Source of the DNA: Cliona cf. orientalis
Lineage: Eukaryota > Porifera > Demospongiae > Clionaida > Clionaidae
Direction: 5' to 3'
Assembly (NCBI GenBank): GCA_963930775.1
Contig: OZ005706.1
Coordinates: forward strand, 7,122,428-7,186,427
Length of the DNA stretch: 64,000 nucleotides
The notes under the pieces were generated by a model. The model was given only the letters and a program-made list of their open reading frames with translations, had not been told where the DNA came from and made no database searches. The translations under genes and the position numbers were made by a program. Shown here piece by piece: positions 8,327 through 61,331 of the stretch (the first letter of the stretch is position 1; each line of letters begins with the position of its first letter).

Positions 8327-11300
8327 ATGATGGATAGAGTTGATCTCGACGTTTCCCAGGCTCGCGCCGATCTTCTCCCTGACAAGTATGATCGTCGCCG
8401 GATCAGCGGGGTCCTTGCAATTAGGAGGTTGTCCAGCTGTCACTACAAGAGGCAGATGAGCAAGGGGGACGTGTGTAGTGTATGGGTGCTACTGCTCCTT
8501 CTCGTCTACTCCCTGCATCACGTGATTCACTCCAAGCTGTGGCGGTCGTTCAAAAGACGCCATTGGCTCCTTGTCTTCTTTGTCTCTTTGCCACTGAGAT
8601 TTTGTTGGAAGATCGTAAAGAAACTGTTGGCTGTGGTTTGTAAGATCGTATTCAAACTGTTAGCTGTAGTTTGGAAGATTGTAAAGAAATCGTTCAAACT
8701 GTTGGCTGTAGTGTGTGGTACATTGGCAATTGGCTACAAATTTTATTATCTTCTGTGGCTGTTTCTCAAATGGTGTTTCCTAACAGCAGAACTTTGTAAG
8801 CAGTTAGACTACAACGCAACCAGTATCGGACAGAGCTGTAATATTGACGTGGTGGGGTCAAAGTTCACCATGGAGCCAGTTAGCCATGTTTCTTGTGAGG
8901 TATTCGTGTACTCTGGAGTGGGGTGGGTGTGGTCTGGGTCAATCCAGCTTCGAGCAGCTCAGCTGATCATACGTCAACGACTCATCTTGTCTGGTGACGT
9001 GGAACTCAACCCTGGACCAAGTAAGATTATAACTATATTCATCATACTATTAGAATGTTTATGACGATGCGTATTGTATTTTCTATATAATTATATAGAT
9101 GGTCAAGAAATAGAGGCTGTACTTGCATCAGTGGACGATACTGTGTTTGGTAAGTGATGTTAGTCTTCATAGATACCATTAAGGATTTGAAATTTATTTT
9201 GAATTCTATCCTCAGAAAAAGAGCATTGGAATATTTTGATCATCGAGTGTAAATCATTGTCTAGCAACTGGGAAAAAGTCAGTGGATACCTGGGCCTCTC
9301 CTTCGAACTGATTGAGACTATCAAACGGGACAACCCCAGGGACAGCGCTGGCTGTTGGAATGAAGCCCTCAAACACTGGATCAAGCAAACCTACAACACG
9401 AAGCTGTTCGGCCAACCTTCATGGAGGAGTCTTCTCAAAGCTGTGGCAGAGGTAGATAAACATCAGTTTCAGAAGTTAGCAGCGGAGCATCAAGGTGAGA
9501 AATTAATATTTTACCCATTTACTCTGTAACTATGATACTTTGTTTTCCATAGCTGCCAGTGGAATATTACATGTATGTCAAGGCAGTGAAGGGAGTACTT
9601 TCTGTGAAGTTCAAACCAGCCGTAGTGAATCTAAAGGTTTGCTGTTTAACAGTAATAATTTGTACATGTGTATGGCTTTCATAGTCTATACTGTTTTATC
9701 ACCTGTTAATGTTATGTTATGTGTTGTTGTATCATTTTCAGAACCAGTAGGGATATTTGCTGAGTCAGATCCAACAGTACCCACCATATCTCCTCAACAG
9801 AAGGAGCAGCTTCGTGAAAGACAATGTTTCGAGTCTGAGCAAATGATATACAAATTTCAGAAGCTTTTCACGGACACAAAAAAGTCACTACGAGAGAAAA
9901 AAGTTCCCGTTGATGAACTAGTTGGTCATTTGGAGTGCTTGGGCTATATCAAAGCAACGTTCACTGATTCTGGCCTTCCATCTTTACGACATAAGCTACC
10001 AGAACTAGCTGATGCTAAGACTGTCGATGCTGTCATGTCCGTCGTCAAGGACTACTGTTCGTTCTTCAACTACCACATGGTGGAGCACATCATCGATGAA
10101 TTTGGGACGAGGCAAGACAAGGAGAACATGACCAGCTACAAAGAGGACTTCACCAAGTATGCCGAGTGCTGCATTACACAGTGTCCTTCAGAGGTTGGGA
10201 AAATGAGTGAAAAGGGGTGTGCTAACTTATTCGTGACGCTGGATGATTCATTTGACAATTGTGCCATCAGTCACCTCAATGTATTCATTGGCAACTTGCG
10301 GAAGATCCTGAAGATTCCTTCTAATGTGGTGCTCAGGCTGTGTCGCGTTAATCCCGGATGCGTCAAGCTAATCTTTCAAATCCCTCTTTCTGTCCAGCAA
10401 GCCATCTTTCCTCTCTCCAGTGAGCAGAAAGTAGAGTTAACCAGTCTAGGTGTCGTACAGCTCTCCTGTGGGGACTACCAGTTCACTGCACAACAGACTG
10501 AGGTAAAGTCAATAGACCCTAGTGGATGGATTTGTTGAGTAGTTCCATTTTCTGTGTTTCCAGGAAGTGGTAGAGGAGCCAGCGACTAATGGAGACTCAG
10601 ACCACACTGATAGTGGGGCAACTGTCGACAGCTGTAAGGCAGTCATTTTGTGTTAATCCATCTTTTTAATTATTAGGGTATGCATTATTATTAGTACTCT
10701 GTACAATTGTATATCCCATGCAATACGCATAAAGTTTTATAGGGAAATTAAACACTAAGTAGAAAAAAAAAGCAAATTTAAATAAATAATCTAATTTGTG
10801 GGGGATTTGGGAGCACTTGGGGGGTTACATGGGCACGCAGAATGGGTCGAAACTAGAGATTTGACCGGACAGATTTTTGATTCACGCCTTAGAATTAAAG
10901 TTATGGCCCTTTGAAGTTTTCCCATATGTTGCATAGGAAGCCATGCAGTTGCAATGTTTTCCGCCCACGCTCTACGTGAGGGGTGGGGCCACGCGCGCAC
11001 ATCAACGTGACGACCATTACCCACTTTGGTCAAAATTAATGTATAGGCTGCCTGCTTGCATTGTATGGCTCTACTATGCATCCAGCTCGACTATGTGGTG
11101 GTTTTTGGACGATTTTTTTTTCTGCTTAGTGTTCTGGTCTTCTTGAAAAAAAAAAAAAAAGCAAAAACACATGTGAGTTAGATATAGCACACTGAGTGAC
11201 TGGATATAATTTTTTGGATCCTCCATGGTTTTCAATAGTACATGCAGTATTGAAGATCTAGGAATGGAACTGGGGACAAACCTTTATTCAACAATCATAT

Positions 11301-13704
11301 ACTTGCATACACTAGTATGCATGTGTACCCTGTAGCTATATACTTTGCCAAACTGACAATACTGTAACCACTGCATGCAGGGGCGGGCCAGGATCATGGG
11401 GGGCAGCTAATCCCCCCTCCCCTTTCCAGGGAAATAATAATTTGTAGCATCTTGCATCATTCTGCTGTGCTTGGTTAAATAGGCAGCTTTAGCACCCTCC
11501 CTTCAACTAATGAATCTTGATCCGACTACAAAATGTAGCTAGAAACCTATTAAATTTGTAAGGTGAAATGATCAGCATCTCTGGCTGTCGTCTCATTCAC
11601 GGCAATGATGCACATGGGCATGGCCACTTGAAAACTTATTACAGGACCCCTACTTGATATACTGGATCCGCCCCTGCACTAGATTTACAAATCATTGTTT
11701 GGGTGGGCCTAAGTGAGCCTAAATGATACATCTACATCCAGCATGCAGTCTATACTATTGTAAAAACTTGATGGAGCTCAAGTCTGCACTCAGCTGATGG
11801 TCCAACTATCATGATCACACTGAGTTTTTCTTATCGAGTTACTGTCATAGCCACTCAGGCTCGCCCCACTATAATAATATACAGGCCCTACATGATACTA
11901 TAGTCTTTACTTTGTGTGCATGACTATAGGTGATGCTGAGTTGTTATCGATGGCTGCTGGACTGGCTGTGGGCAAACCTGGGGATACTGCCTCCATCAGT
12001 GCTGACTCAGCACTAGGGAGGAGTAGTGTTATCACTGGCACTACAGCCGGAGTGACACAGTTCAGTGAGGTGAGTCAGATCACTGACTGCTACTGGTCTG
12101 GGCTGTTCTAATGTCCCATATTCCATTCCCAGGATCTGGTGGACAGAGAATTAAGTGATCTTGGAATGGGAATAGGACATGGTATAGCTGGCGCATCAAC
12201 TATAGGTGATGCTGAGTTGTCATCGATGGCTGCTGGACTGGCTGTTGGCAAACCTGGGGATACTGCCTCCATCAGTGCTGACTCAGCACTACGGAGGAGC
12301 AGCGTTAGCACTGGCAGTACAGCCGGAGTGACACAGTTCAGTGAGGTGAGTCAGATCACTGACTGCTACTGGTCTGGGCTGTTCTAATGTTCCATATTCC
12401 ATTCCCAGGATCTGGTGGGCAGAGAATTAAGTGATCTTGGAATGGGAATAGGACATGGTATAGCTGGTGCATCAACTATAGGTGATGCTGAGTTATCATC
12501 GATGGCTGCTGGACTGGCTGTGGGCAAACCTGGGGATACTGCCTCCATCAGTGCTGACTCAGCACTACGGAGGAGCAGCGTTAGCACTGGCAGTACAGCC
12601 AGAGTGACACAGTTCAGTGAGGTGAGTCAGATCACTGACTGCTACTGGTCTGGGCTGTTCTAATGCTCCATATTCCATTCCCAGGATCTGGCGGGCAGAG
12701 AATTAAGTGATCTTGGAATGGGAATAGGACATGGTATAGCTGGCGCATCAACTGAAAATGATCTATTCCAAGTGTCATGCAGGGGAGACTTGAAGAAAGT
12801 AAAAGAACTAATTGAGGAAAAGCAATTTGATCCACTACAGAAAAAAGGCCATTTCGAAGCCAATATTCTTCACTGTTCATCTCGATATGGACAGCTAGGA
12901 GTGCTAAGATATTTCATTGAGGAAAGGGGATGTAGTCCAGCAAGTCAAGATAATCGAGCATGGACACCTCTTCATTATGCAGCATCTGGTAAACATTTGG
13001 ATATAGTCCACTATTTGGTAGTTAAGCAACAAATGGATCCACAGTGTTGTGCTAACAATGGCGATACTCCACTACATGCTGCTTCTCAGGGTGGGGACAT
13101 TAATGTCGTGAGATATCTCATGAATGAACTAACCAACTTTCTTCCACTCAAAGACATAGTCATTATCAGAGGCAGTCTAGGAAGAACTCCTATTCACCAC
13201 GCGGCTTTGCATGGACATTTGGAATTAGTTAGGTTCTTCATCGCTGACTTAAACTGTGACCCTAATAGTGCTTTACCTGTTATGTATCAGAGAAGGATTA
13301 CTGGAGTTGGAGGTAGAATTGCCCTTCATTCTGCTGCCCAACGAGGGCATTTGCAAGTTGTCAAATACTTAGTAGAACAGTGTAACTGTAATCCATCATA
13401 CTTGGATAAGAAAAGAGTGACACCGCTGCACCTTGCAGCTCAAGATGGTCATTTTAAGGTAGTGCAGTACCTCACCCTGGAGCAGCACTGTGACCCACTA
13501 TGTAGAGCCAAGAATAACAACACTCCTCTTCATTTAGCTGCCTTATGTGGCCGCCTTCATCTTGTTAGATTCTTCGTTGAAGTGCTCCATTGTCCTCCTG
13601 ACATTAGAGGATGGTGCAACACGACACCACTGGAACAAGCACGTATCCTAGATCACCGCCATGTTGTACAATATTTAGAAACCATTCGTGCTAGATTTAA
13701 GTGA
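8327..13704 (+). CDS. 2A-leader Death / unnamed domain / ankyrin protein, unit II, intact (1174 aa)
   Basis: Ten exons: 8327-9020, 9099-9149, 9216-9494, 9553-9636, 9742-10502, 10564-10633, 11930-12069, 12133-12345, 12409-12621 and 12685-13704. All are GT-AG and in phase, giving 1174 codons. Residues 1-231 are a basic, hydrophobic leader with likely membrane segments near 52-66, 80-91 and 125-155 and a repeated KLLAVV motif; it ends in SGDVELNPGP. Ribosome skipping before the last proline would free the rest. The Death domain is at about 249-341, the unnamed domain at about 385-620, then three copies of a linker module, then about nine ankyrin repeats (850-1170). The ATG at 8327 is the first in the frame. 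Exon 10564-10633 is cut by a retrotransposon remnant, but a GT at the junction keeps the frame. A membrane/cytosol dual product is inferred. Confidence 0.85.
8963..9019 (+). other. 2A-type ribosome-skipping signal of unit II
   Basis: Residues 224-231 read DVELNPGP, preceded by RQRLILSG. This meets the established 2A consensus D[VI]ExNPGP, with skipping between the final glycine and proline. The exon ends one base after the proline codon, so the downstream product would begin Pro-Asn-Gly-Gln-Glu, directly ahead of the VDDTVFE Death leader. Confidence 0.85.
10634..11157 (+). mobile_element. Retrotransposon-tail insertion in linker exon of unit II
   Basis: Unit VII carries GACAGC followed directly by AAAAACACATGTGAG (46366-46378). 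In unit II the same two pieces are separated by 10634-11157, which ends in a run of about 14 A. The first ~140 bases end in CCCATGC..TACGCATAAAG...ATAG, like the 3' tail of the non-LTR element at 41820-41870. The remainder (10790-11140) is unrecognised. The insertion splits the ancestral exon. A GTAAGG right at the left junction now serves as donor in the same phase. Confidence 0.7.
11158..11377. other. Intron remnant downstream of the insertion
   Basis: This begins with the displaced end of the ancestral linker exon (AAAAACACATGTGAGTTAG) and continues as intron, similar to 46373-46480 of unit VII. No other feature is seen. Confidence 0.5.
11378..11676. mobile_element. MITE with CAGGGGCGG termini
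   Basis: The left end CAGGGGCGGGCCAGGATC and the right end GGATCCGCCCCTG are inverted copies. The interior has no coding potential. It lies in the long intron before the first linker exon of unit II. A clear target duplication was not seen. Confidence 0.6.
12133..12684 (+). repeat. Two tandem 276-bp exon+intron copies in unit II
   Basis: Exons 12133-12345 and 12409-12621 are each 213 bases, followed by 63-base introns, and are nearly identical. Each fuses two modules that are separate exons in units I and VII: DLVDRELSDLGMGIGHGIAG, then GDAELSSMAAGLAV. The former splice acceptor CTATAG|GTGATGC is now read through as coding (ACT ATA GGT GAT GCT). The duplication therefore joined an ankyrin-exon head to a linker exon. 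Confidence 0.9.
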
Positions 13705-14967: not shown

Positions 14968-15719
14968 CACCTACACGATTGAGGTAAAATCACCTTCAGG
15001 GAGCAAAGGAAATGTTCCATAACCTACCATGATGGACATGGCATGCAACTGTTTTATGAAAAAGGGTCGTCAGAGTTGCTAGCATGGATAGCTATTCCCA
15101 GGCAGCTAATCTCGCAAGCCACACCTCTGAAGGGTGTGGCTTGCGAGACAATCTGAGCTGATCTGCCAGCTAGGCAAAAATTCTATAATTTGTGCTGGGA
15201 GTACAGTCGCGCTTTGCTAGTACATAGTTCTGAAACGTCGTGTGTGTGTGTTTATAGTACTACCAATCAGTTGACGCAGAACAAAAATGGCTCAAGAAAT
15301 CGATGATCTTCTCTCCAAGGCTGACGACACAAGTTTTGGTGAGTATCACGCAAGCTGAGCCACACCCTATGCATGCTATGATAATTACTTGATAGATAAT
15401 TATTTTATCTAAATTTTTCACAGTGGAAGATGATTGGAATGTGGTATTTGAAGAGTGCAGTCCACTAGCCTCCAAGTGGCAGCAGCTCAGTGCCTTCCTT
15501 GGCCTCAAGCTGTCGATTATCGTCGGATCGTATAAAGAGTGTAGACATGGCTAGATTTAAGATGAAAAGGTGGTTATTTTCCTAACCAAGAACCTGTTTC
15601 CGTGGTTCTCGGGGTTCCTTAAAGTCACATGTTTAGGTATGCTGGATTCATGGCAATAAGTAAATCATTTGATTAGTGCTATATCATTAAAGTATGTAAG
15701 CCTAGGAATTTCCGTGTAA

Positions 15720-25196: not shown

Positions 25197-26307
25197 CGTT
25201 GTGTGTGAATACCAGTAGATCTATACTACTGATCGGTTGATAAAGAACATAAATGGCTCAAGGAATCGACGATATTCTCTCCAAGGTTGACAACACAAGT
25301 TTTGCGCGCGCCACACCCCCAAATCCGAGAGGTTGGGGTGTGGCGCGTGCCTACTGAGCTATATAGAGGCAAGGATTTATATAATTAGATCTTAGATAAA
25401 ATAGGAGGGGATGATTAGATGTATTCCAGTACTGTATAAATATTTAAATAATACTATTCTCTAGGTAGTATAATAATTATGACATAATATGTGGTATATA
25501 TATAGCTACCCTTAGAAAATCAGTATGGGCCAGAGAAGACTTATGGGGAAATCATAGAATTTGTACGTGGGGGAGCTCGAGGGGGATCCCTGTACCCTCG
25601 AAATATATACCTGCTTATGGATCAGTATAGTTCCACAGTGGAAGATGATTGGAATATGGTGTTCGATGAGTGCAGTTCACTAGCCTCCAAGTGGCAGCAG
25701 CTCAGTGCCTATATAATAATATCTTGGTCTAAAGCTATCAATTATTGATTGCATAAAGATTGATTTCCCCAGTGATAGCCTTGGCTGTTGGAGTGAAGCT
25801 CTCAAGAAGTGGATCAAGATGAACTACGACATACAGAGATATGGCAAACCATCATGGAAGACATTATACTCAAAGTCATTGCAAAGATTGATAAGCTACA
25901 AGTCAATAGGCTGGCAACCGAGCATCAAGATACAGGTAGTACTAGCTATTGCTATTAATTATTATCATTATTGCATAAATTATTTGATTGTAGCGTCTAC
26001 TATAGTATATCAAATGACCAAAGGAACTATGCCCAATCCTGGATAAGCCAGTGGTGAGTTTATTCATGGTTTAGCAACAAAATCGAATAGGTGCAAGTTG
26101 CCAACGTTAAATCCAATACACCCATGCTTACCCTTGAACAGAAAGGGAGGGTGTGCTCCGAGTCACAAAGTATGATGTACAAATTCCAAAAGTTTTTCAT
26201 ATTATAATATAGCAATGAGAAATCGCTGTGGCAGAAACAAGTCAGTCTCCATTAAGGATCTAGATCATCATCTGGAATGCCTGGGATCTGTTAAGCCAGT
26301 TTACAAG

Positions 26308-28318: not shown

Positions 28319-29521
28319 TCACAATATTATTTTGAAATAATGAGAATTGAAGATAATGAATAATAATGAGCATGATAAATATATAATCACAATAATAATG
28401 AGAATTGAAGATAACAGTGGATATGTAATATGTGAAGTCAAGTTGTTGTGGTAGTAGACATTATTTGTCTGTAACCACTGAAGTGCAGATAGCACTCGAG
28501 ACCTCCTGACACGAAAGTCACGATGTGACTGATTGGCTCCTTCTTTCCTCACAATAATGACATCAAGCTCGCTGGGTAGTCGAGGCAAGCTGTTGGCAAA
28601 TGAGGCTACATCTTGTGGCAAGTTGATGACATGTCCACTGTAGCCATACTGTCCATGTGGTAGACGATAGAGGGTCATAAAACAGCTGATATTAGCATTT
28701 CCTCCACCTGTGTTAAATCCTGCAATGTAAAAAAACAACATTGACATGATGCTGTAGTATTTGCTACTGAGCATATTTACCTGTAGTTGTTGTGGTACAG
28801 GGCCAGGATTCATGTTGTTCTCAGATGAGTACAACTTTGGTACATGCTTGTCCCGACTGCATGATAGACACTCTCCAGAATGTGAATTAACTTTTAGCCC
28901 AGGGAATTGCTTACAAGTTGTACAGGTTGGCATTTCCAGCGCTGCACAGTGTGCATGAAACTTCAGCATCTTTGATTGAACTGATGACTGTTCAAGTAAG
29001 GGTAGATGGGTCACTTGGTCCCTGTGCCTCTCTCTATCAGCCTGCAGCCTGGCTTCTCTTTGGTCCAGAGTCTCCTCAGTCAACCTCTCATTTCGGCAAG
29101 CTGTTACATGCGATAGGCGGGCCTGTCTTTCTTCTGGAGTCTCGGTAGCCAATCTTTCACTTTGGCGAACACTCATCCTGTCAAGCCGGGCATCTCGTTG
29201 CTCTGGAGTTTCAGTGTCAAGTGCTTGACGTGTATGAATATGGACTCGCTCCAACCTGGCCAATCTGTGCTGTTCACTCTCTGCAGCCAATCTTTCGCTT
29301 TCCCTGGAACGTTTTTGCTGTAGTCTTGTTTGTCTCTGTTCCTCAGTCTCTGCAGCTCTTCTCGCTCTATGATCCCTCATTCTTCTCTTCCTTTTCAGCC
29401 GCGGTTTCCGGAGCACGGCGAGCTCTTTCTCTCTCTCGTCTACGTTGAAGTTTGCTTTCATGTGAAGCACTCCGGCAAGGTCGCTTAGAAGTAGAAGGGG
29501 TAGACGTACAGTAGGATCCAT
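28319..29521 (-). pseudogene. Helitron-associated N-terminal protein (DUF6570-like) fragment
   Basis: The ATG at 29521-29519 starts a basic, charged stretch with about four repeats of the type ETPEQRxARLxR (residues about 55-160). A zinc-finger-like CTTCKQFP...SGECLSC segment follows, then YRLPHGQYGYSGHVINLP and LPSELDVIIVRKEG. This order is that of the DUF6570 region found before Helitron-like replication and PIF1-type helicase domains. A 61-bp intron (28780-28720, GT-AG) appears to lie in the middle; splicing it out gives LTQVEEMLIS. The frame shifts soon after, and no Rep or helicase follows. It is cargo in the element 27726-29981. Confidence 0.7.
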
Positions 29522-30293
29522 ACTTCACTGTTCAGTGCAAGTGAACCTCGAAATGCAAAAAAAATACCACCGTACCGCATGCACGAGGTGAAAATTGTAG
29601 CGTATTCGTTAAATTAGAGGTAGCGCATTTACGGAACGACGTACGACAGAAACATATAAACGGAAAAAATCTCGATTGAACTGACTAGTGTGGGGCTCGC
29701 TCCGGCTCGCCCCAATTATTCTAATGCATGCACACTGTGCTCTCTGGGGCGTGGTCAACGGAGTCGAGAACGACCGAGTTAGTAACAAAATTCTTACCGG
29801 GAGGAAAAGAGGCTACTATCTGAGGAGCTACTGCATGCAAAGCTGCCTTTCTTCATTCTAGAAGAGTCATTTATATATTTGTGGGCTCTTATGCTGTCTT
29901 CACAGAGATCATGTCAAAAAATTTGGGGGTGCTTCCGAGGGTGCTTCAGCACCCCCAAGCACCTACTTGTCTACGGCCATGAACTGTAATCCATCATACT
30001 TGGACAGTAAGAGAGTAACACCGCTGCACATGGCAGCTCAACACGGCCATCTTGAGGTAGTGCAGTACCTCACCGTGGAGCAGCACTGTGACCCACTGTG
30101 TACTAACAAGAATAATGACATTCCTCTTCATCTAGCCGCCTTAGATGGCCACCTTCAACTAGTTCAATTCTTTGTTGTTGTGCTCCACTGTCCTCCAGAT
30201 GTTAGAGGGCAGCTTGACATGATACCACTAAAACAAGCACGTAGCCAAGGTCACCGTCATGTTGTACGATATTTAGAGTCCAAACTTCAGTGA

Positions 30294-30691: not shown

Positions 30692-34471
<3,780 letters not shown>

Positions 34472-35276: not shown

Positions 35277-35393
35277 GATCATGGACCTTGCCAAATGATT
35301 CGAGGATTTTGCCCTGAGGATGACTAGAGAGCATCATAATGATATTATTATTATTATTGATTAATGATAGTTATATTATTTCATGATTTATAG

Positions 35394-35435
35394 AAAAGCA
35401 AGAGATTCTCTCTGAAGTGGATGACACAACTTTGG
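35394..35435 (+). CDS. Orphan 2A-type Death leader exon
   Basis: This 42-base exon with AG and GTATGT borders encodes KQEILSEVDDTTLG. It matches the second exon of units VII (42713-42754) and IX (61290-61331), which follows the 2A leader. No 2A leader exon was found upstream in this place. Its phase (1 in, 1 out) allows it to join the last exon of unit V to the Death exon of unit VI. Confidence 0.6.
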
Positions 35436-36794
35436 GTATGTAATTGTGCGTTTTAATACACTGTATACAGCTTGCTACTTATAGCTAAAAATAATTATTT
35501 TCAAGGGATACAATAATTTTTGTGAATAAGCACAGTATGAAAGTCAGACCCCTAAATAGCACGATTGTACTAATTAAGTATGATGAGCAGTTAAAATGAA
35601 ATTGGCAAAAATTAATGGTAAATATCACCTATAATATCGGTGAAAATTGAACCTCTCAAAAATTTCCCTGCCATATTATAATTATAATATTATTATGGCA
35701 TAATAGTATGTGAGCTGATGAATAATATACTCATTGGTATTCATTAATACTACTCTTGGATTGGCTGACAGACAATCGGTCCACTCTTTGAATATGTCAA
35801 ACTGACTACCTATAGCTAAAAATTCGACTTACTGTGTGTGGGCATGCATAATAATGTTGTGTCCGTGGATTATTTGCACATATCCTGTAGTCCCTTTGTC
35901 ATGTAACTCCTTCACAAACATGGGAGATATCTAAAGCCTGTACCTATCCAATACTAAACTTTCAGACTCCAGGACCCCCAGCAATTAAGCAGCATTTCCA
36001 CTATTTTTCTCGATTATAGCCATGCACCGAAAGTAAATCTATAAATTATATTGTGCAATGTGCGCGCGGGGTATGTGCTCTACAGAGCTCTAGTTTTATT
36101 AAAGCAACCATATCAACCATGGATTTATCACTAACAGAGTGCAGCGTTTTTCGGTGTCCATGAGATATTTTTTGAAGACCATCAGAAATGGTATTAATTA
36201 AGGCTTGATAACAAAGACTCTTGCCATAGCCTTTTTGGTAGCCATACAAACACATCGTATCCGTCGTAAATCGCTTTCATGGACGAGCACTGCAACTTGG
36301 GAAGAGCATAAGCTTAGATAGATAGATAGATTTTTTTTATGTCACACATTAAAAAACCGCATCCGCCCTGAAGGAAACACATAGGAAACACACTCGGGCT
36401 ACCCAATTGGCCAAAGGGCTATATAATCCAGAATCGTCGCTAGCTCCGCTTCTTGATTTCTCACTGGCGCATGGCCGCGATCGATCGATCGCACGTTACG
36501 CGCACGCGCATACGCCCACGTTGACATTCGTCATCATACTAGGCGTCAGCGCTATAATTATAATAAGTATTATAATATTTATAAGGTTACAATAATTATA
36601 ATTATTATACTAGAGTATCCTATTTTCCCAGACATTTTGGCGCTTTTTCCCTCCCTTTTTTCATGGGTACGATCTTCCCCCTTTTTTTTCGAGTGCCCGA
36701 GGCTGGGTACGAGGCTAGACTTGAGACAGTTCGCAGAAGTCGTGTGTGCAAATTTTTATAGTAGCTACTACTGATTTGTTGATACGGATCACAA
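35436..36794. other. Spacer upstream of unit VI
   Basis: A GGGGTATGTGCTCTACAGAG fragment of the ACCCCGTGC repeat family lies at 36068-36090. From about 36100 to 36794 the sequence is paralogous to 55080-56225, upstream of unit VIII. No gene was found; the short frames are not conserved between the two copies. Confidence 0.5.
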
Positions 36795-40189: not shown

Positions 40190-42060
40190 ACAAGACTTAG
40201 TGCTAAACTCGCTCTGAGACTCCTGACATACACAAAGTCCGCAGTAGGGGATCTTCTGGACAGTCTTGGTCAGGGTGCGGGGCTGAGCTCCAACTAGCTG
40301 TCTGGTACAAGCCTCCAGCGTAGCAGCGTGACCGACAAACATCACGTTGCCAGAAGCTGGCCCAGTACCAAAGGAGTGGAAAATATCTGCTGTTGTTCCA
40401 GTTCCAAAAGGTGACAATTCAAGTCAACCCAGTAACTACAGGCCTATATCGCTCTTATCTATTCTTAGTAAGCTTCTGGAAAGACATATGCACAAAATGA
40501 TTTACAAACACTTGGAATCCACTGTCCCGCTAGCCTTACAGCAGTGGGGTTTCCGCCCCAAACGATCTACTGTATCTGCTCTACTTGATGTTACCAATCA
40601 TTGGTTTCAATCTTTGGATAAGGGCAAAGAAATATGTGCGGTTTTTTTCGACCTGCGCAAAGCTTTCGACTCTGTTCCACACCGAATAGCTACTACTACA
40701 GAAAATACGATCAACTGGTATTAATCAACTGGTCTCAAATTGGTTGTTCTCATATTTACACAATAGAAAACAGTACGTTGTGCTTGATGGAAAAGAGTCT
40801 GCACCGGTTCCTGTATTGTCTGGAGTTCCACAGGGATCTGTCCTCGGTCCCCTTTTGTTTTTATTATACATTAACGATGCAACAGATGAGCAGTTAAATT
40901 GCGGAAGTCTCACTACCCTTTATGCTGATGATATGCTTCTACACAGGGAGATCAGCTGCCCAGATGATTATGCTAAGATACAAAGTGATATAAATACCCT
41001 TTCTACCTGGGTCGACAAGAATAATCTAACATTGAATGGAAGCAAATGCAAGTACATGATAATATCTTGACTCGGTGGCAGCTCCTATTCTAACTCTCCA
41101 CAACAAGGCTATTGAAAAAGTATCCTCGTATAAGTATCTAGGTGTCATCATTACAAAATTTAATGACCTATTGTGGTCTGCCCATATTGAACGGATAAGG
41201 AGTAAAGCGAATAAGATCATTGGCCTTATTTACCGTCAGTTTTATAGCTGGTCTTCACAACAAACTCTACTTAGGCTATACACTTCATTAGTAAGGCCGC
41301 ATTTAGAATATGCAACGCAGGTTTGGAACCCGTATTAATTTTGATGAAAGATATCCAAAAATTAGAGAACGTACAGAAGTTCGCACTTAAGGTATGCTGC
41401 AAGCGATGGGACTTAACCTATGCTGAAGCCCTGGAGCAAACGGCACTCCCAGATCTCAAGGCACGCAGGACTCACTTAAATCTATGTTATTTTTATAAGC
41501 TAATTAATGGGTTTTTTGAGTTTCCCAATTCCCCGCTAACTACGGGCCAGTTAAACTACCCTACTCGTAGTGGTAGAACTAATTTGTAGCTACTATCAAC
41601 CTTATGCACATTCTAATTCATTTCTGCACTCCTTTTTTCCCGCAAACTATTTCATTATGGAATTCCTTACCTTTTTCTATTGCTTCTGCTCCTACTTTTA
41701 ATTGTTACAAACGCGTCTATTATTGTCTTATGTTTAGTCTCTATGCTCTGTCATCTTGTCTCTTGTAATTTTTGTTTTGTTTTTGTTTATTTGGTTACAT
41801 GTTTATATGATAGTGTATAGCTATTGCACTTATACATGTACCCCATGCTAATGCATAAAGATATTATAGAGAAAAAAAAATCGTCTTCAGAATCACCCGG
41901 GTGATGTTAAACATTCAACATTCTCTTGTAGAATTCCACATTGAAGTGCGTCTCACTCGGTTTGAGGTCTTGGAGAACCGCCCTTCATCGTGGACCAAAG
42001 TTTTAAATAAGAGATGGAGAGTTCAAGACTGACGGGACACCTAGCAGCTAAACATCAAGA
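40190..42060 (-). pseudogene. UBASH3/TULA-type phosphatase exon, split by a retrotransposon (copy 1)
   Basis: On the - strand 40346-40240 reads NVMFVGHAATLEACTRQL followed by VQKIPYCGLCVC. This matches the second half of the histidine-phosphatase domain of UBASH3/TULA proteins (VAHASSLEACT ... RKIPYLGFC); the histidine is the family's catalytic residue. The preceding part of the exon, THFNVEFYKRMLN, lies at about 41900-41980, beyond a 1.5-kb retrotransposon. A 7-base duplication-type frameshift just after it is shared with copy 2. It is a fragment: there is no UBA or SH3 region and the remainder of the catalytic domain is missing. It lies between units VI and VII. Confidence 0.7.
40347..41880 (+). 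mobile_element. 5'-truncated non-LTR retrotransposon (reverse transcriptase)
   Basis: The frames 40347-40724, 40744-41070, 41075-41338 and 41323-41589, separated by frameshifts, read as one reverse transcriptase. Motifs are WKISAVVPVPK, NYRPISLLS, FFDLRKAFDSVPH, GVPQGSVLGPLLFLLYIND, the catalytic LYADDMLL and the YKYLGVIIT thumb. The 3' end is TAATGCATAAAGATATTATA plus an A run. It is most like CR1/L2/Jockey-type elements. It interrupts the TULA fragment; copy 2 at 60300-60600 is the empty site. It is inactive because of the frameshifts and truncation. Confidence 0.85.
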
Positions 42061-42514: not shown

Positions 42515-45500
42515 ATGAGTGATTTGTGTGTTGTGTGGTGGGCGTGGTTTGGGTCACTCCTGCTCGGAGCGTCCTGGTTGGTTGTTGCCCTGCGTCTCAT
42601 CATGTCTGGAGATGTTGAGCTCAACCCTGGACCTATCGACCAAGGTTGGTCTCTCAGCAATGCCTGCCATCACTGCCGTTCATTAATGATATTCATGATA
42701 TTATTTTTATAGAAGATCAAGAGATTCTCTCTAAAGTGGATGACACAACTTTGGGTATGTAACTGTGTGATGATATTAATTTTACCCCGTGCACGTGCGC
42801 AAGGGGTAAAGTATATAATAGATTTTGTATGTGTCTGTTATCATGTATCAGCACAAAAATCGCCAGATCTGGAGATCTAGGCATCTGAGCGACTAGTAAG
42901 TACAATGTATCCATCAATATCATCGAAAAACCGGCCTCAGTATGTGCTTTGAATTATTTGGTACGACCCACAAGCATCACAAATACTTAGTTTTATTGGC
43001 CATGCCTATGGACACTACCACTATGTACTTTCTGCTCATGCACACAACCTGGCACAATATGTAGGTAAAGATCATCAATAGGCTGCTGGCATGATCTCTG
43101 ACATCGACGCTGCAGCGCACGGGATATGTGCTCTATAGAGCTCTAGTTTTCATGCATGATTTTACATAGATACACTGTAAACGTGGAAATTTTTCCTGGG
43201 AGAAAAATTGATTTTCACCACCTTGCCCTCTATTAATTTTTTATTTGAGGTACATGTAGCTGGGCTTTGAAATTTCCACGTACAGTAGTAATAATTGGGG
43301 CAAGCCTGAGCAAGCCCCACACTAATCAGTACTACGAGAAAACCGCTGTACTTGTGTATGTATGTACATGTATGTATGTATGTAGCGATACGTCAAACAC
43401 GTGCTCGCTAGCGCATAGCGCATGCACATAATTATCGCGGTAAAGATCGTCAACGTTGGCTGCGTTTTAACTCTAAATATAGCTCACCAAAAGATGCAGC
43501 TTGCATCCATTCGATCGAGTAGACTGCTAGAAAACAAGAAATGGTAAGGCATCAGTACAAGTATCTACAGCAAAATTGAAGGCTAGGCCTACAGTCTGGG
43601 TACAAGAACTACGTTATGATCTAATTTCAGTAGCTAGCTAGCTGTACAATTCTGTAACCACTGTGATACAGCCTGTGTATGTAGTAGTCCAGTGGCAAAA
43701 CTCCTGACGTACTGAGGATGAATCATGCATGGTGTGCAACTGTTATTTATAGCGTAAAATACCGATTATCGGCATGTATCAATTATCGGCACCCGCATTT
43801 ACGGCAAATTTTACGGGAAATTACAGATCCGTTTACGGTCCTGGAACAAAAACTCGCGCTATCTCTCGAAGGGAAGTAAACAGGATGTTTTAAGGCCAAC
43901 AGTCGTTATGTAGGCGTGGCAACGGACCCATAGAGCCCAAGAAAGTGACCTTCGACCCCCAGTTCGCTAGCTGAATTTTTGGGATCGAGTTTTTAGCTAT
44001 TTTGTTGTCTGGTAGTCTCCACTGAGTCTTAAAGTGGCTGTTAATGAGTTCTATAGCTTCAGGCTATTGCCAGGAGCTAGAGTTTAGCCTACAAAGTGTC
44101 AGACAAACGCCGATCATATCTAAGAGAAAATTTTGTGTATTTTTGGATATAATTTCAGCTATTATGTAGCGAGTGGAAAGATTCGCTCTCTTTAAATGCT
44201 ACTGTTAGTGGAGCACATCGAAAGGAACCTGTGGAATTTTCTTCAGAATTTTCCAAGTAAGTATAGTAATTGTGGAGATATACGAAAGCTCGCTGGTGCC
44301 GATAATTGAGTATAGGCAGTACTATGGGGTGCCGATATCTGATTTTTTGATACCTTGGCTATACTGCCCATAGTTCCGTGAAGAACTGTATCTATAGCCT
44401 TGGATTTGAGATGTAGTATATTGAGTAAAAAAGCTATCCTTTGGTGCAAGAACCATCATCATAGGTTGTTCTGCTGGTAAGTTATGCGCGGGACAAATAT
44501 AGGTGCCGATAATTAGTATTTTACGCTACTCCTTATCCCTTGGTCTTTGTAGTGACAATAGACTGAATCAGCTGAGCAACAGATAGCTGCTTGTACTGTA
44601 GGTATTTAATATGGATTGAAGGTAGTACAGGGGGCACCCCAATCCTCCCCCTCTACTATTAAAATCTAGGAGCAAAGGCTCACCCCCTCAATGATTTATA
44701 CGTACAATGTACATGTACTTCACCCTAGTATTTTGGTGTAAGCTGTGATAGTGATGAATACTCACACTGATATTAAATTTTATTTTTTTTCTTCCCAGAG
44801 GAGGATGACTGGAACATAGTGATTGATGAGTGCAGCTCAGTGGCTGCTAAGTGGGAGCAGGTCAGTGGGTTCCTTGGACTCCATCTCTCCCTCATCGACA
44901 CCATCAAACAGAACCGCCCTGGAGACAACGTTGGCTGTTGGAATGATGCCCTCAAGAACTGGATCAAACACAACTACAACACAAGCAAGTTCCATGAGCC
45001 GTCGTGGAGGTCTCTGCTCAATGCCATTGCTAGGGTCGACAGGGCACTCTTCAAGAAATTAGTTGCTGAGCACCAAAGTAAGCATAAACTGAGTTCGATT
45101 TTTAGAATATTTTTGAAGAGAGAAATTTTCATTTCTATCTGTTGCAGTGAGTGTAAGTGTTGAAGTGGATCATGTGGAGAGAGACACAGAGAGTTTGAAG
45201 GTGTCAACAAATGATATCCAAGAGTCTAAAGGTAACAGCATTAACTCAGCGAATACTTTCATCAATATGTACGTCCATTTTACAGATAGTGGTAATGCTA
45301 CAAAGTCGTCTGATGCTGGTACACAGCCTGCCGACAGTGGAAGGGCTACAGTGGAACACCAAGGTGTGTATTGTGCTTAAGAATTCTTACAAGCTAACTG
45401 TATTACATGTGCATGAATCTAAAGGCTTGTATGTCCTGCCCAATCTACTATTTTATCATCTTTGTGTTTTATCCTCTAAGGACCAGTTGCTGAATCAGAT

Positions 45501-48500
45501 CCAGCAGTACCCATCGTATCTCTTCAACAGAAGGAGCAGCTTCGTGAAAGACTATGCTTCGAGTCTGAGCAAATAATATATAAATTTCAGAAATTATTCA
45601 CGTCCACGAAAAAGTCACTACGAGAGGAAAAAATTCCTGTTGATGAGCTAATTGGTCATTTGGAGTGCTTGGGCTACATCAAACCAACGTTCACTGACTC
45701 TGGCCTTCCATCTTTACGCCACCAGCTACCAGGACTAGCTGATGCTAAGACTGTCGATGCTGTCATGTCCGTTGTCAAGGACTACTGTTCATTCTTCAAC
45801 TACCACATGGTGGAGCACATCATTGATGAATTAGGGACGAAGCAAGACAAGGAGAACATGGCCAGCTACAAAGAGGACTTCACCAGATATGCCGAGTGCT
45901 GCATTACACAGTGTCCTTCAGTGGTTGGAAAAATGAGTGAAGAGGGGTGCGCTAACTTATTCGTGACACTGGATGATTCGTTCGATAATTGCGCCGTCAG
46001 TCACCTCAATGTATTCATTGGCAACTTGCGGAAGATCTTGAAGATTCCTTCTGATGTGGCGCTCAGGCTGTGTCGCGTTAATCTCGGAAGCATCAAGCTG
46101 ATCTTTCAAATTCCTCTTTCTGTCCAGCAAGCCATCTTTCCTCTCTCCAGTGAGCAGGAAGCGGAGTTATCCAGTCTAGGTGTTGTACAGCTCTCCTGTG
46201 GGGACTACCCGTTCACTCCACAACAGACTGAGGTAAAGTTAACAGACTCTAGTGGATGGATTTGTTGAGTAGCTCCATTTTCTGTGTTTCCAGGAAGTGG
46301 TAGAGGAGCCAGTGACTGATGGAGACTCAGACCACACTGATAGTGGGGCAACTGTTGACAGCAAAAACACATGTGAGTTAGCAGTTATGGTGTAATTTTC
46401 TTGTACTCTGCATCGTCCATGTTTTTCAATGCTACATGCGGTTTTGAAGATATGGGAATGGGGCTGGGAACGATAGGCGCTGATCCAGAAATTTGCATGG
46501 AAGGTGGCTGATGGGGTGGCTACTCATAGTAAACTATACTGGTGCAAGGGGGGGGGTGGCTGATTGATAATGGTGGACGTCTCCAACACTATTACTTGTG
46601 TTGCATAAAAGTGAAGGGAAAGCCTATCTACCCCTGGCCCTGGATCAGTGCCTGGACCAGCCTTCATTTTGATTCCATAAACATGTACATGCACAGGTAT
46701 GGCACTAGATGTACAAGCCATTTTTTGTGAGCATACCCTTAACAATGGTGCACCCCTCTCTCTCTCTCAAATTAGGCAATGATAAACATCTTATCATCCT
46801 AAATTGGAGTGAGCCTGAGTGAGCCTAAATGATGCATCCATACATCCAGCGTACGATACATGTACGGTGGTACAATCATCAAAGTACATAGCTTAGTGTG
46901 GCTCTACGGATATTATTACCCGTGCGCATGCGTAAGGGGGTAAAGTATCGGTCATGTCGTCGTTGTTGTCGTTAGCATAAAAATCGCCATACCTTGAGAT
47001 ATAGGTGTCTAAGTGTCTCGTAAGCACAATGAATCAATTGAATTTGGCGAAATACTGGCTTCGGTGTGCATCAAATTGAGGGATACAGTCCATGAGCATC
47101 ACAAATAGTGCCTTTTTGTTGGCCACCGTAGCCACGCCTATCAACAGTGCCCATCAATGCATATGCATACCAATAATTATTGTGATTTCTGCTCATGCGC
47201 ACAACTATATGTAAGTGGCCAAGCCTATGACTGGTAAAGATCGTCAATGTTGTAAATAATGCTCGTGATGTCTCTAGTGACTGAAATCCAAAGCCCTATG
47301 GAACCAATCATAATGTAAGATAGCTATACTACTACAGGTAGAAATTCATATCTTCCTATAGTCTGGGCTAGGTCTGGGTGCAAAGAGTGCTTTTTCAAGT
47401 GTCACTAGTACAGCTAAGCAGCATTTCCGTTATTTGTCTGAAGTTCACACAACTATAGCCATGTACCGAAAGTAAATCTATAGACTGCGCAATGTGCACG
47501 CGGGGTATGTGCTCTACAGAGCTCTAGTATTGCAAAATAATCTGCTGCATATTCAAATGCCCCATACCACTCTAATTCTTTTCGTGAGCTGTATACTGGA
47601 TTTTGTGGGTGAGCATGTCTGAGAAACTAAATTTTGCTCTGCCTATTCAATTTGGAGCTCAAATCTGCACTAGTACTCAGCTGATGGTCTATGACAGTTT
47701 TTTTTTCACATCTGCTGTCGTAGTCGCTCAGGCTAACCCCACTACAGGCCCTGCATGGTACTAGTCTATATTTTGTGTGGCTATAGGTGATACTGAGTTG
47801 TCATCGATGGCTGCTGGATTGGCTGTGGGCAAACCTGGGGATACTGCCTCCATCAGTGCTGACTCAGCACTAGGGAGGAGCAGTGTTATCACTGGCACTA
47901 CAGCCAGAGTGACACAGTTCAGTGAGGTGAGTCAGATCACTGACTGCTACTGGTCTGGGCTGTTCTAATGTCCCATATTCCATTCCCAGGATCTGGTGGG
48001 CAGAGAATTAGGTGATCTTGAAATAGGAATGGGATATGGTGAAGTTGGTGCATCAGCTGTGGATGAACTGTATCGAGCATCAGGCAGGGGAGACTTGAAG
48101 AAAGTAAAAGAGCTCGTTGAGTTGAACAAGCTTGATCCACTACAGAAAGGTCCGCTTGGAATGACTGCTCTTCACAACTCAGCTCTGTTTGGACAGCTAC
48201 ATGTGCTAAGGTATTTCATCGAAGAGAGGGGATGTAGTCCAGCAAGTCAAGACAATCGAACATGGACACCTCTTCATTATGCTGCTCTCGGTAAATATCT
48301 TGATATAGTGCGCTATCTGATTGCTGAGCAACAGATGGATCCACTGTGTTGTGCTGACGATGGTGATACTCCACTACATGTAGCTTCTCGGGGTGGGGAC
48401 ATTAATGTAGTGAAATATCTAGTGAATGAACTAAGCAAGTATCTTCCGCTCAAGGAAATAGTCACTAGTGGAGGCAAAAATGGAACAGCTCCTATCGACT

Positions 48501-49006
48501 ACGCAGCTGGGAATGGAAATTTAGAAATAGTGAAATTCTTCATCGATGACTTAAAGTGTGATCCAAATAATATCGCTCGACCTGTTGAGTACCAGGGTGT
48601 GACTACTAGATTTGGAGGTAGAATTGCCCTTCATTCTGCTGCCCAAGAAGGACAACTGCACATCGTCAAATATTTAGTAGAACAGTGTAACTGTAATCCA
48701 TCGCACTTGGACAGTGAGAGAGTAACACCGCTGCACCTCGCAACACAACACGGTCATCTTGAGGTAGTGCAGTACCTCACCTTGGAGCAGCACTGTGACC
48801 CACTGTGTGCGCCGAAGAATCATAACACTCCTCTTCATTCTGCTGCCTACAGTGGCCACCTTCAACTTGTTAAGTTCTTTATTGAAGAGCTCCACTGTCC
48901 TCCTGACGTTAAAGGAGCGCTCAACCTGACACCACTGGACTTGGCAGGTTGCCGAGATCACCACCATGTTGTACAATATTTAGAGTCGATTCGTCCTAAA
49001 CTTTAG
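42515..49006 (+). CDS. 2A-leader Death / unnamed domain / ankyrin protein, unit VII, intact (866 aa)
   Basis: Nine exons: 42515-42644, 42713-42754, 44799-45077, 45148-45231, 45286-45363, 45481-46232, 46294-46372, 47787-47926 and 47990-49006. All are GT-AG and in phase, giving 866 codons. Residues 1-30 form a tryptophan-rich hydrophobic leader (VVWWAWFGSLLLGASWLVVA) and residues 33-40 are DVELNPGP. Skipping would release a 43-residue-scale leader end and a product starting PIDQEDQEILSKVDDTT. The Death domain is at about 58-151, with two acidic/serine linkers at 151-205. The unnamed domain is at about 215-455, the linker module at 482-528, and nine ankyrin repeats at about 545-860. Intron 2 (2.0 kb) and intron 7 (1.4 kb) are full of repeats. 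Unit II is the nearest relative in the unnamed domain. Confidence 0.88.
42581..42634 (+). other. 2A-type ribosome-skipping signal of unit VII
   Basis: Residues 31-40 read SGDVELNPGP after VALRLIM. All invariant positions of the D[VI]ExNPGP motif are present. The hydrophobic leader before it is only about 30 residues, much shorter than that of unit II. Confidence 0.88.
42780..43160. repeat. ACCCCGTGC inverted-repeat family, copy in unit VII intron 2
   Basis: The copy begins TACCCCGTGCACGTGCGC and ends near GCACGGGATATGTGCTCTAT. Other copies are 46915-47535, 61360-61725 and a right-end piece at 36068-36090. The ends are weakly inverted. There is no coding region. Confidence 0.6.
43161..44798. 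other. Rest of unit VII intron 2
   Basis: The segment includes a GGGGCAAGCCTGAGCAAGCC motif (43300), a TATG run and other sequence paralogous to 62505-63400. The MITE at 62892-63199 is absent here (empty site near 43713). No exon between 42754 and 44799 is supported. Confidence 0.5.
46373..47786. other. Unit VII intron 7 with ACCCCGTGC-family repeat
   Basis: A copy of the ACCCCGTGC family at 46915-47535 makes up nearly half. The remainder resembles the equivalent intron of unit II (11160-11929). The MITE of unit II at 11378-11676 has no counterpart here. No exon is seen. Confidence 0.5.
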
Positions 49007-53821: not shown

Positions 53822-53838
<17 letters not shown>

Positions 53839-54355: not shown

Positions 54356-54370
54356 TTAATGATACTGTTC

Positions 54371-55488: not shown

Positions 55489-55497
55489 TTATAATAA

Positions 55498-55985: not shown

Positions 55986-56225
55986 TTATAATAATAATAA
56001 AAATTATTATAATATTTATAAGGCTACTATAATTATAATTATTATACTAGAGTATCCTATTTTCCCAGACATTTTGGCGCTTTTTCCCTCCCCTTTTTTC
56101 ATGGGTACGACCTTCCCCATTTTTTTCGAGTGCCTGGGTACGAGGCTAGACTTGAGACAGCTCGCAGAAGTCGTGTGTGCAAATTTTTATAGTAGCTACT
56201 ACTGATTTGTTGATACGGAACACAA

Positions 56226-58847
56226 ATGGCTGAAGGAATCGACCGTGATATTCTCTCCAAGGTTGACGACACAAGTTTTGGTGAGTGCCACTTCTCGCGC
56301 ACCACGCCCACAATCTGAGGGCGTGATTAATATTACTACTTGGTGCGGGTGATATAAGCTCGGTGCCTGCTGTTCTGATAGCGCTTATACTAGATAGGAG
56401 TTTATAATTTTTCAGGAGAAGGAAATCAGATGTATTTGAGTGCTTTAATAGTAGGGGAAAGCAGGGCTTTTGGGGGGCCAGGGGGAGGGGGCGGGGCTGA
56501 TCCCACAATGTCATGTACCATTGAAATGCATAATATATTATACCTGTTTGTGGATAGATTATTAAATGTCATATACAGTGGAAGATGATTGGAATGTGGT
56601 GTTTGAAGAGTGCAGTCCACTAGCTTCTAAGTGGCAGCTGTTTAGCACCTACCTTGGTCTCAAGATGTCGATTATCGATCGCATCAAGAGTGATTTCCCC
56701 AGCGATAGCCTCAGCTGTTTGCACGAAGCTCTCAAGGAGTGGATCAAAATGAACTACAACACAGAGAGATTTGGTAAACCATCGTGGAAAACTTTACTCT
56801 ATGCCATCGCGAAGATTGATAAGCTACTATTCAATAGGCTGGCAACTGAGCACCCAGGTACATGTAGGTATATACATGTACGTACATGTAGTACTAGCCT
56901 CGTCCCCAGGCTCAAGAGAGCCTAGGAACAAGGCTATTAAATGTAGTACTAGCTATAATATAGCTACTGCCAGATAATTATTTTCATAATTGCATAAATT
57001 ATTTGATTGTATATTGTTTACTGAAGGAACTATGCCCAATCCTGGGGAAGCCAGTGGTGAGGTTTAATAGTATTAAAAAAAAAACGAATAGCTGCAACAT
57101 TTAAATGTACCGGAATCATCTACGATTGGATTCGATTCCAGTCCCCCCACGCTTACCCTTGAACAGAAAGGGAGGGTGTGCTCCAAGTCACAAAGCATTG
57201 TATACAAATTCCAAGAGCTTTTCATAGCAATGAGAAAATCACTGTGACAGAAACAGATCTTGGCAAGAGTGCATTTAGGACTCTTGGTCTCGGTTAAGAT
57301 CTATCGTTTTTATTCGAATACTAGCCGTGGCTACTATTTAATTTCAGCCTTGCTGGAGTGCGGCTACTAATCGAGGGCGGCTTTTTAATATTAATTTGGA
57401 GCAATACCTCTTGGTGATATTGACACAATAGACTTGATAATTTTCAGGACTGATTTTCGAATATTGGAGACAGATGATATCGATCAATAAACAAGCAGCA
57501 GAACCAAGCTAAGGACGTTTTTCTCCCATGTTTTTGCCTCGAACCATAAACGATCATTCATAGCTTGCGATCGTGGCTACGCCCACTTAATTGTGTTCGC
57601 GCATGCGTGCGGCTACTATTCGAGGGCTCGTGCCCAGCCTCTTTATCATGTCAGAGGCTGGGCACGAGACTATACAAGGGTGGGGTCACAGTCGAGGTCA
57701 TTATTAAAATGTAGTGACATTTAAATTTGACGATGCGGCTGCCATTTTGGCGGAAGCGCCGGTCATAGCTACCTAGCCTCGCGAGCCAGCCCCTCCTACG
57801 CAAAGGTCATACCGGTATCCTAGCCAAGACACAATGCAAGAGTCACTCTCTTCTCAGGTGGGGATTGCTCTAGCTGCAAAGTACAGAGCAAGTGCTGTGG
57901 AACAATTATTGCCAAAATACTTACAGCAGCGACTTACTTATTTGAGCCGATGTTCCCTCTCCTGGATCGGCTTGGTGGGGGAGGGGGCACTGCTCTTTTA
58001 GCTGGTCCTTCAGGGCCTCAGCCAGATACCAACTTGAGTTGGGGTGGGGGGATGGAGTTGGTAATAAAATCGATAGCTATCTTTCACTAGAGAACAGAGC
58101 AGCCTAGAAATAGCACACGAGGGCCGCTATAAGACTGCGCATGCATGAACCCCTGTACACCTTATTTTGCATGCACCATACTCCAATTGTTCCATTACAG
58201 ATGCTATCACGTCTATATTGGCTGCTGGATCAGGACATGGTGTAGATCTAGCAACAGCCATGGGAGACTTAAAGAAAGTAAAAGAAATCACTGAGGAGAA
58301 ACATCCACTCACGGATATAGGCATAGATGAAGGAGCTCCTATCCTCCGTTTTGCAGCAGCATGTGGAAGCTTGGAACTAGTACAACTCTCCATTACTCAT
58401 TTAAACTGCGACCCTAATATTGCTCTACCTGTTGAGTACCAGGGTAAGACTACTGGATTGGGGGGTAGAATTGCCCTTCATCTTGCTGCCGAAGGAGGAC
58501 ATCTGCAGGTCATCAAGTATTTAGTGGAACAGTGTAAATGTAATCCATCGCACTCTGACTGTGAGGGAGTAACACCGCTTCACATGGCAGCCCAGTGTGG
58601 TCATCTTGAGGTAGTGCAGTACCTCACCCTGGAGCAGCGCTGTGACCCACAGTGTACTAACAAGAAAAATAACACTCCTCTTCATGACGCTGCCTCATTT
58701 GGCCACCTTCAACTTGTTACGTTCTTTGTTGAAGTGCTCCACTGTCCTCCTAACGTTAGAGGAGTCCGCAACATGACACCATTGGAACTAGCGCGCAGCC
58801 AAAGTCGCCAGGGTGTTGTACAGTATTTAGAGTCCAAGCTTCAGTGA
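56226..58847 (+). CDS. Short Death / ankyrin protein, unit VIII (326 aa)
   Basis: Exons 56226-56280, 56579-56857 and 58201-58847 are in phase and open for 326 codons. The leader is MAEGIDRDILSKVDDTSFG. The Death domain (residues 19-111) reads DDWNVVFEECSPLASKWQLF...SCLHEALKEWIK...SWKTLLYAIAKID. The ankyrin part (112-326) has five to six repeats like unit VI, with an added TDIGID segment near residue 150. A decayed stub of the unnamed-domain exon remains in the intron (57090-57265, in-frame TGA), so the domain was lost after the unit was made. It is the paralogue of unit VI within the segmental duplication. Confidence 0.78.
57090..57265 (+). pseudogene. Stub of the unnamed-domain exon in unit VIII
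   Basis: LTLEQKGRVCS.SQS.VYKFQELF can be followed before a TGA (CTG TGA, near 57245). Homology ends at about 57265. In unit V the same exon is 779 bases and open. Confidence 0.75.
57266..58200. other. Intron of unit VIII
   Basis: 57300-57790 has a GGCTACTATT/GAGGCTGGGCACGAG repeat mix with no gene; 57810-58200 matches the intron of unit VI. No exon is supported. Confidence 0.5.
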
Positions 58848-61091: not shown

Positions 61092-61331
61092 ATGTGTGAT
61101 TTGTGTGTTGTGTGGTGGGCGTGGTTTGGGTCACTCCTGCACGGAGCGTCCTGGTTGGTCATTGCCCTGCGTCTCATCATGTCTGGAGATGTTGAGCTCA
61201 ACCCTGGACCTATCGACCAAGGTTGGCCTCTCAGCAATGCCTGCCATCAGTGCCGTTCATTAATGATATTCATGATATTATTTTTATAGAAGATCAAGAG
61301 ATTCTCTCTAAAGTGGATGACACAACTTTGG
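61092..61331 (+). CDS. 2A leader of unit IX, rest not in window
   Basis: Exons 61092-61221 and 61290-61331 encode MCDLCVVWWAWFGSLLHGAS..., then SGDVELNPGP (residues 31-40), then EDQEILSKVDDTTLG, with donors GTTGGC and GTATGT. They are nearly identical to the first two exons of unit VII. In unit VII the Death exon follows after 2 kb. Here the matching intron ends near 63415, where homology breaks and no Death exon follows up to 64000. The gene may continue beyond the window or be truncated. Confidence 0.65.
61158..61211 (+). other. 2A-type ribosome-skipping signal of unit IX
   Basis: SGDVELNPGP with all invariant residues, preceded by IALRLIM. It is unchanged relative to unit VII although the surrounding leader has substitutions (LLL to LLH, VV to VI), which suggests constraint on the motif. 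Confidence 0.8.

Follow-up and report, generated by a model that had tools for sequence, protein, structure and literature searches.

Leader–2A cassettes in a Death and TRADD-like gene family of the sponge Cliona cf. orientalis and their apparent exchange at the 2A core

Some genes of a Death-domain family in the sponge Cliona cf. orientalis appeared to be built from a 5' cassette, a membrane leader ending in a StopGo/2A core, joined by splicing to a body of Death, TRADD-like and ankyrin domains. The family was followed in a 64,000-nucleotide stretch (C18:7122428–7186427, the window; contigs are written as C with a number) and in the whole genome searched (216.8 Mb, 149 contigs). Units II, VII and IX of the window carried the cassette, and units I, III, IV, V, VI and VIII started with a short head exon that has its own methionine. 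According to the explanation that we consider probable, the 2A core is skipped during translation, cassettes have been exchanged between bodies with the 2A as the seam, and the genes with a Met-start head are derived.

The motif D[VI]ExNPG[PA] was found by a six-frame scan at three places only in the window, all on the plus strand: 8996–9019 in unit II, 42611–42634 in unit VII, and 61188–61211 in unit IX, each of which read DVELNPGP. The available part of PMC12846837 gives the StopGo/2A core as (D/G/C/N)(V/I)ExNPGP and describes an L-rich, SG-ending class of upstream sequence. The three window sites matched the core octapeptide and, like viral and eukaryotic StopGo/2A sequences, had an L-rich stretch ending in SG before it. 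The residues before the core were RLILSG in unit II and RLIMSG in units VII and IX; compared by eye with that description, RLI[LM]SG before DVELNPGP fits the L-rich, SG-ending class and thus a permissive context (L-rich, with an S/A/C-G end), which supports the explanation given above.

Unit II was open in one frame across five exons of the plus strand with GT-AG joints. Exon 1 (8327–9020) encoded a 231-residue multi-span leader with three predicted hydrophobic spans, ending in GDVELNPGP and one further base (phase 1 donor). It was followed by a head exon without methionine (QEIEAVLASVDDTVF, phase 1-1; 9099–9149), the Death exon (9216–9494), a linker exon (9553–9636), and the TRADD-like_N exon (9742–10502). 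An ankyrin open frame identified by homology (12664–13704, plus strand) lay outside the reconstructed exon chain, and a short partial ankyrin copy was present at 12112. Unit VII, also on the plus strand, was open across exon 1 (42515–42644; a 40-residue hydrophobic leader ending in the 2A, then IDQ and one base), a head exon without methionine (EDQEILSKVDDTTL, 42713–42754), the Death exon (44799–45077), the TRADD-like_N exon (45481–46232), and one more short exon. A piece linking this short exon to the ankyrin exon (47990–49006, plus strand), which lies outside the reconstructed chain, was searched for in unit VII and none was found. In both units, the leader, head and Death exons were linked by GT-AG joints in phase 1, and the coding frame after the 2A stayed open to the end of the Death exon. 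Unit IX had a 40-residue leader ending in the 2A (exon 1, 61092–61221, plus strand, its end set by homology to unit VII) and a head exon without methionine (61290–61331, plus strand, both ends by homology to unit VII); its Death exon (locus L041) was located at C18:7186528, about 100 bases past the end of the window. A preliminary description of this DNA had placed heads lacking methionine behind a hydrophobic GDVELNPGP leader in units II, VII and IX and Met-start heads in the other six. The scan and homology mapping confirmed this observation, and its further statement that these are one family with homologous head exons and a single splice phase was also supported.

Two kinds of leader were distinguished. 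Among 24 genes with the unit II type, 21 leaders were 205–250 residues long, with 1–5 predicted spans over the 24, and the unit II leader matched no Pfam family. The leaders of units VII and IX were 40 residues long including the 2A, with 31 residues before the core; hydropathy gave one span in the unit VII leader, and the unit IX leader fell below the same cut-off. This short type occurred in 12 copies in the genome with 88–100% identity. The unit II leader weakly matched the DNA upstream of the ATG of unit VII (E 0.047), and the short leader may therefore have arisen by truncation of the long one.

The 24 long-leader genes were used to compare leaders with the bodies that they precede. Their Death exons fell into three classes named by short motifs (c1, c2, and c3), and their leaders included a C13 type and a C18 type; the unit II leader and copies on contigs C3 and C6 belong to the latter. 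When C13-type leaders on c1 and c3 bodies were compared (24 pairs), the median number of synonymous substitutions per site (dS) was 0.075 in the leader, while that of the Death exon was saturated. For C18-type leaders on c1 and c2 bodies (48 pairs), the median was 0.163 in the leader against 2.1 in the Death exon. The mean identity over the last 300 nucleotides before the 2A end and the 120 nucleotides beyond it dropped from 0.937 to 0.393 between different bodies of the C13 type (18 pairs) and from 0.882 to 0.344 in those of the C18 type (35 pairs), whereas C13 pairs with the same body (18 pairs) gave 0.931 before and 0.932 beyond. In the three C13 different-body pairs that were profiled further upstream, about 200 nucleotides before the usual ATG were 86–100% identical, and the similarity ended at the 2A. 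In approximately unbiased (AU) tests, the leader DNA rejected body class c1 as a clade (p 0.00115), and the Death data rejected the C13-leader set as a clade (p 0.0028). These comparisons strongly support an exchange of 2A leader cassettes between different bodies, with the seam immediately behind the 2A.

Strong selection on the leader, in place of exchange, might also keep leaders alike on different bodies, and the leaders were indeed under purifying selection, with a median ratio of nonsynonymous to synonymous substitution (dN/dS) of roughly 0.3–0.4. This explanation is very unlikely. Exchange is preferred because the silent sites, too, were nearly identical in the leader, yet saturated or at 2.1 in the Death exon. 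Selection alone was ruled out by the low leader dS, the identity upstream of the ATG, and the stop of the likeness at the 2A. In a public protein (P0033), a leader of the C18 type preceded a tail from a C13 c3 body, a combination that none of the 24 genes had; its contig is 1,412 bases long, and an assembly chimera is possible.

Constraint on the 2A core was assessed with leader relatives from a leader-only search of a set of 5.8 billion proteins; two further searches for relatives returned body proteins only and no leader relatives. The core was kept in 51 of the 53 leader relatives, and the other two, on reading, left the leader frame before the core. Seven of the 53 were letter-identical to leaders of this genome; therefore, the relatives do not all come from other species. 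The 51 core-bearing relatives and 24 genes of this genome gave an alignment of 75 rows, which was thinned to 63 non-redundant leaders. In these 63, all chosen with the core, eight of the nine core columns were invariant (GDVE-NPGP), and the free x position held 62 leucines and one valine. The 194 other leader columns had a mean pair identity of 0.675 and no invariant run longer than two. Only 2 of 195 nine-column windows reached the mean identity of the core, and one of these may be the window of the core itself. The strong constraint on the core supports a 2A function. If the motif were an inactive passenger and the leader an ordinary signal anchor, a relative could lose the core and retain its head and Death exons, as one gene described below has done. 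We nevertheless hold a passenger motif to be quite unlikely, since, among rows chosen with the core, hardly any other part of the leader is as strongly constrained, and the sole substitution falls at the position known to be free.

The relation between Met-start and 2A heads was examined in a tree of Death exons (76 rows, 93 columns; 7 of 83 dropped beforehand as fragments), in which several 2A labels were set by distance to the listed site where the fetched stretch stops short. All seven labelled Met-start genes fell in one clade of nine with support of 97/95, and no 2A-labelled gene lay inside it. Of its two unlabelled rows, L069 read as a Met-start head and L084 had no head assigned. The 2A heads were scattered over many clades, with at least seven changes forced by well-supported branches. 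Because the labelled Met-start genes are confined to one clade while the 2A heads are spread, the Met-start genes look like a single derived lineage whose head exon has turned into exon 1.

The preliminary description had proposed interchangeable 5' ends, with cytosolic and 2A heads fitting any body as a regulated switch of location. The common phase 1 and the homologous head exons agree with this proposal, and the part of it that concerns mobility stood, since 2A leaders seem to pass from one body to another. The exchange between Met-start and 2A heads did not stand: the single Met-start Death clade without a 2A-labelled gene led us to reject the two as freely swapped alternatives, and in the window the DNA upstream of the Met-start units matched neither type of leader at E up to 0.05. 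The proposal as a whole is therefore improbable. A third type of 5' end was observed as an extra Met-start Death exon upstream of L107, which belongs to a Death clade of 15 in which no 2A was found. L107 and a cluster on C10 (7.9–8.76 Mb) form a large Death clade without a listed 2A nearby.

In the explanation that we prefer, the cassette of the 2A units would consist of upstream sequence on the promoter side, a membrane leader and the StopGo/2A core, and a phase 1 splice would connect it to a body of Death, TRADD-like and ankyrin domains. We infer that skipping at the 2A would free the leader as a membrane peptide or protein of its own and leave a cytosolic body starting at proline, a near-copy of the Met-start product (PIDQEDQEILSKVDDT compared with MAQEIDDLLSKVDDT). 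A failed skip would give a membrane-tethered Death protein; in unit II, judged by the leader, this fusion would more probably be anchored in the membrane by several spans than be secreted. Because the skipped product nearly equals the Met-start protein, both kinds of gene may be read, by analogy, as making mainly the cytosolic body, with the fusion as a minor product. Recombination or gene conversion would have moved the cassettes between unrelated bodies, with the seam where the 2A core ends.

The skipping itself might instead be nearly complete, so that the genes serve pure co-expression: a single mRNA would yield a membrane protein together with a Death adaptor, the fusion would be negligible, and there would be no dual targeting. 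The unit II-type leaders have the length, the spans and the dN/dS that a genuine protein would show, the core hardly varies, and in the available part of PMC12846837 four upstream motif classes, one of them L-rich, were all active in lysate at about 92.7% to almost 100%. The leaders of units VII and IX, conserved in their copies at the identity given above, speak against it, with little beyond one hydrophobic stretch in the 31 residues before the core, and a comparable sea-urchin leader was skipped at about 80%, with about 15% of the reporter secreted (PMC4981915, available part). Pure co-expression is a serious contender, although we lean somewhat against it.

The dual fate of the products in our preferred explanation, the "translational switch of location" of the preliminary description, rests by analogy on a sea-urchin precedent. 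According to the available part of PMC4981915, NLRs of Strongylocentrotus purpuratus have N-terminal 2A-like signal sequences, skipping of which gives a cytosolic and failure an exocytic product, and non-LTR retrotransposons of the same species also bear 2As. The genes of Cliona resemble these NLRs in that a hydrophobic N-terminal leader ending in a 2A core precedes a Death-containing, putatively immune-type protein. They differ in several respects. The 14 leaders tabulated in that source are 26 residues long and the bodies of this echinoderm are Death-NACHT-LRR, whereas the bodies of the window were Death, TRADD-like and ankyrin, with no NACHT-LRR body found in the window. In addition, Cliona has multi-span leaders, mostly of 205–250 residues, and an apparent cassette exchange with its seam at the 2A. 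Sea-urchin NLRs thus already provide N-terminal 2A leaders with dual targeting, and the body family has been described in Amphimedon. New, as far as we have seen, are 2A leaders on a Death/TRADD-like family, multi-span leaders, and the exchange of cassettes at the 2A seam. A literature search of titles and abstract starts with partial coverage found no 2A described in sponge or TRADD proteins; the systematic eukaryotic 2A survey of Rao et al. 2025 (Cell Reports) may already include 2As of sponges.

A seam in this position suggests why the motif persists, as a leader could be joined to any partner without a lasting fusion. More tentatively, and with rather more doubt than confidence, the 2A core may double as a recombination seam at which a library of leaders with their own upstream regions is shuffled onto a library of Death/TRADD-like bodies, which would amount to a combinatorial immune repertoire. 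If so, each new pairing would at once give two equimolar separate proteins and some tethered fusion, and the 2A would free the leader, so that almost any body would be acceptable without a lasting fusion. The natural series of related leaders, which includes short ones, multi-span ones and one whose core has decayed, makes the purpose of incomplete skipping directly testable.

Several points weigh against the preferred explanation. The case is drawn from sequence comparison. The core search selects for genes with the core, and the Death tree has only 93 columns for 76 rows, with 7 of 83 fragments dropped and several 2A labels assigned by distance only. The groups for the AU tests were defined once the data were known. 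Same-body C18 pairs (31 pairs) averaged just 0.541 past the 2A, so that the contrast at the seam is cleaner in the C13 type. In the gene at C13:625657 (L113), the core had decayed to GDMELTPRP while the head and Death exons were kept; either the 2A is not always needed or this gene is dying. Its nearby paralogue at C13:632134 had an intact 2A.

On the genome scale, the pattern G-D-(V/I/M)-E-x-N-P-G-P occurred 152 times and the reversed pattern, used as a control, 0 times; the cores are therefore not due to chance. Enabling StopGo/2A motifs are called very rare in cellular coding sequences in the available part of PMC12846837, in contrast to the 152 cores of this one animal genome, some of which lie in apparent mobile elements. 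Placement was counted for the 151 of 152 sites with coordinates (147 listed and four placed separately) against a Death list of 150 scored hits out of 321 candidates. At 60 of the 151 sites, the 8 kb that follow held a Death exon of the window family on the same strand, where 0.4 were expected. A family Death hit lay upstream at 20 of the 151, which we think reflects tandem arrays, and none lay on the opposite strand. About 150 cores, with 60 of 151 before one Death family, would add a further group of animals to the case of the sea-urchin NLRs. Several stretches downstream of other 2A sites contained more distant Death exons, and NACHT exons were detected by Pfam downstream of the 2As at C10:338299 and C15:7203546, by position and not as spliced models.

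Other 2A sites were in apparent mobile elements, namely a repeated helix-turn-helix family (L025; core GDIEVNPGP) and an element with PHD fingers and DUF6570 (L127). Open reading frames (ORFs) of apparent mobile elements with 2A cores were noted at L018–L030, L127, L028 and L021, with PHD-like fingers by Pfam in L127 and by eye in L028 and L021. Paired cores on the same strand, about 200–370 bases apart, were observed at C10:760122 and 760492 (L129) and at C10:773803 and 774007, and possibly represent two skips in one gene. At L114 (C15:6801569), a kinase-domain exon was located upstream of a family head and Death exon, where a kinase fusion or a neighbouring gene is possible. Pfam did not confirm the region upstream of L110, which looked FN3-like by eye, or the exons of L117 and L131 that had been read as TRADD-like.

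The body domains were identified by profile and structural comparison. The Pfam Death profile matched 23 of the 28 family members given at E ≤ 0.01 (best 2.5e-6); the unit VII Death exon scored 17 bits, under the cut-off of 22.6. A sequence search of the PDB with the Death exon gave no match. Its AlphaFold2 model had a predicted local distance difference test (pLDDT) score of 79.6, and in a Foldseek comparison with the PDB its 21 best matches were all death-domain entries with probability 1.00, among them the death domains of FADD, RIPK1 and ankyrins, with no E-value below 0.001. Judged from this model, the exons have the Death fold and the family consists of predicted Death domains. The TRADD-like_N profile (PF20694) scored 25.0 bits against a cut-off of 23.7 in both units II and VII, whereas the unit I copy of this exon had no TRADD match in Pfam. 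The ankyrin exon of unit VII matched Ank_2 with an E-value of 6.8e-53. By domain content, the predicted bodies of the window have the architecture of a described sponge expansion. The TRADD-N (NCOA6 clade) expansion of Amphimedon, as given in the available part of PMC8195603, comprises 357 proteins; like the present family, it is a large sponge expansion in which Death-like domains are followed by TRADD-N and commonly then by ankyrin repeats. The Pfam match in this genome is TRADD-like_N, whereas the Amphimedon set is the NCOA6 clade of TRADD-N. Unlike the Cliona genes, the Amphimedon proteins are described without a 2A leader in the available text, in which "2a peptide" occurs 0 times.

The Met-start head exons of the window were all on the plus strand, at 2555–2606 (unit I), 15287–15338 (III), 25253–25303 (IV), 30692–30746 (V), 36795–36845 (VI), and 56226–56280 (VIII). 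Several of these units were damaged. In unit IV, the donor was lost and the body was broken and contained stops; in unit VI, the donor was apparently shifted; and in unit VIII, the TRADD-like exon was broken. Unit III had its Death exon in two halves (at about 15521 and 18810) with an insertion between them, and a frame break later. An ORF with long interspersed nuclear element (LINE)-type endonuclease domains (PF14529, PF03372; 16434–17821, minus strand) sits inside this split exon. An orphan head exon without methionine (QEILSEVDDTTLG; 35393–35437, plus strand, by homology) had an intact donor, and no leader or 2A was found upstream of it; it is possibly the relic of a lost 2A gene.

Further elements were found between the units of the window. 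An ORF with DUF6570, the domain shared with L127, was present at 28319–29524 on the minus strand; the NMNPGP within it is no 2A core. A reverse-transcriptase fragment (RVT_1; 40690–41070, plus strand) was located between units VI and VII. A long tandem-repeat stretch at 5842–7873 had several open frames on each strand (LVPLVPLV and APGAPGAP); it is of low complexity and probably not a gene.

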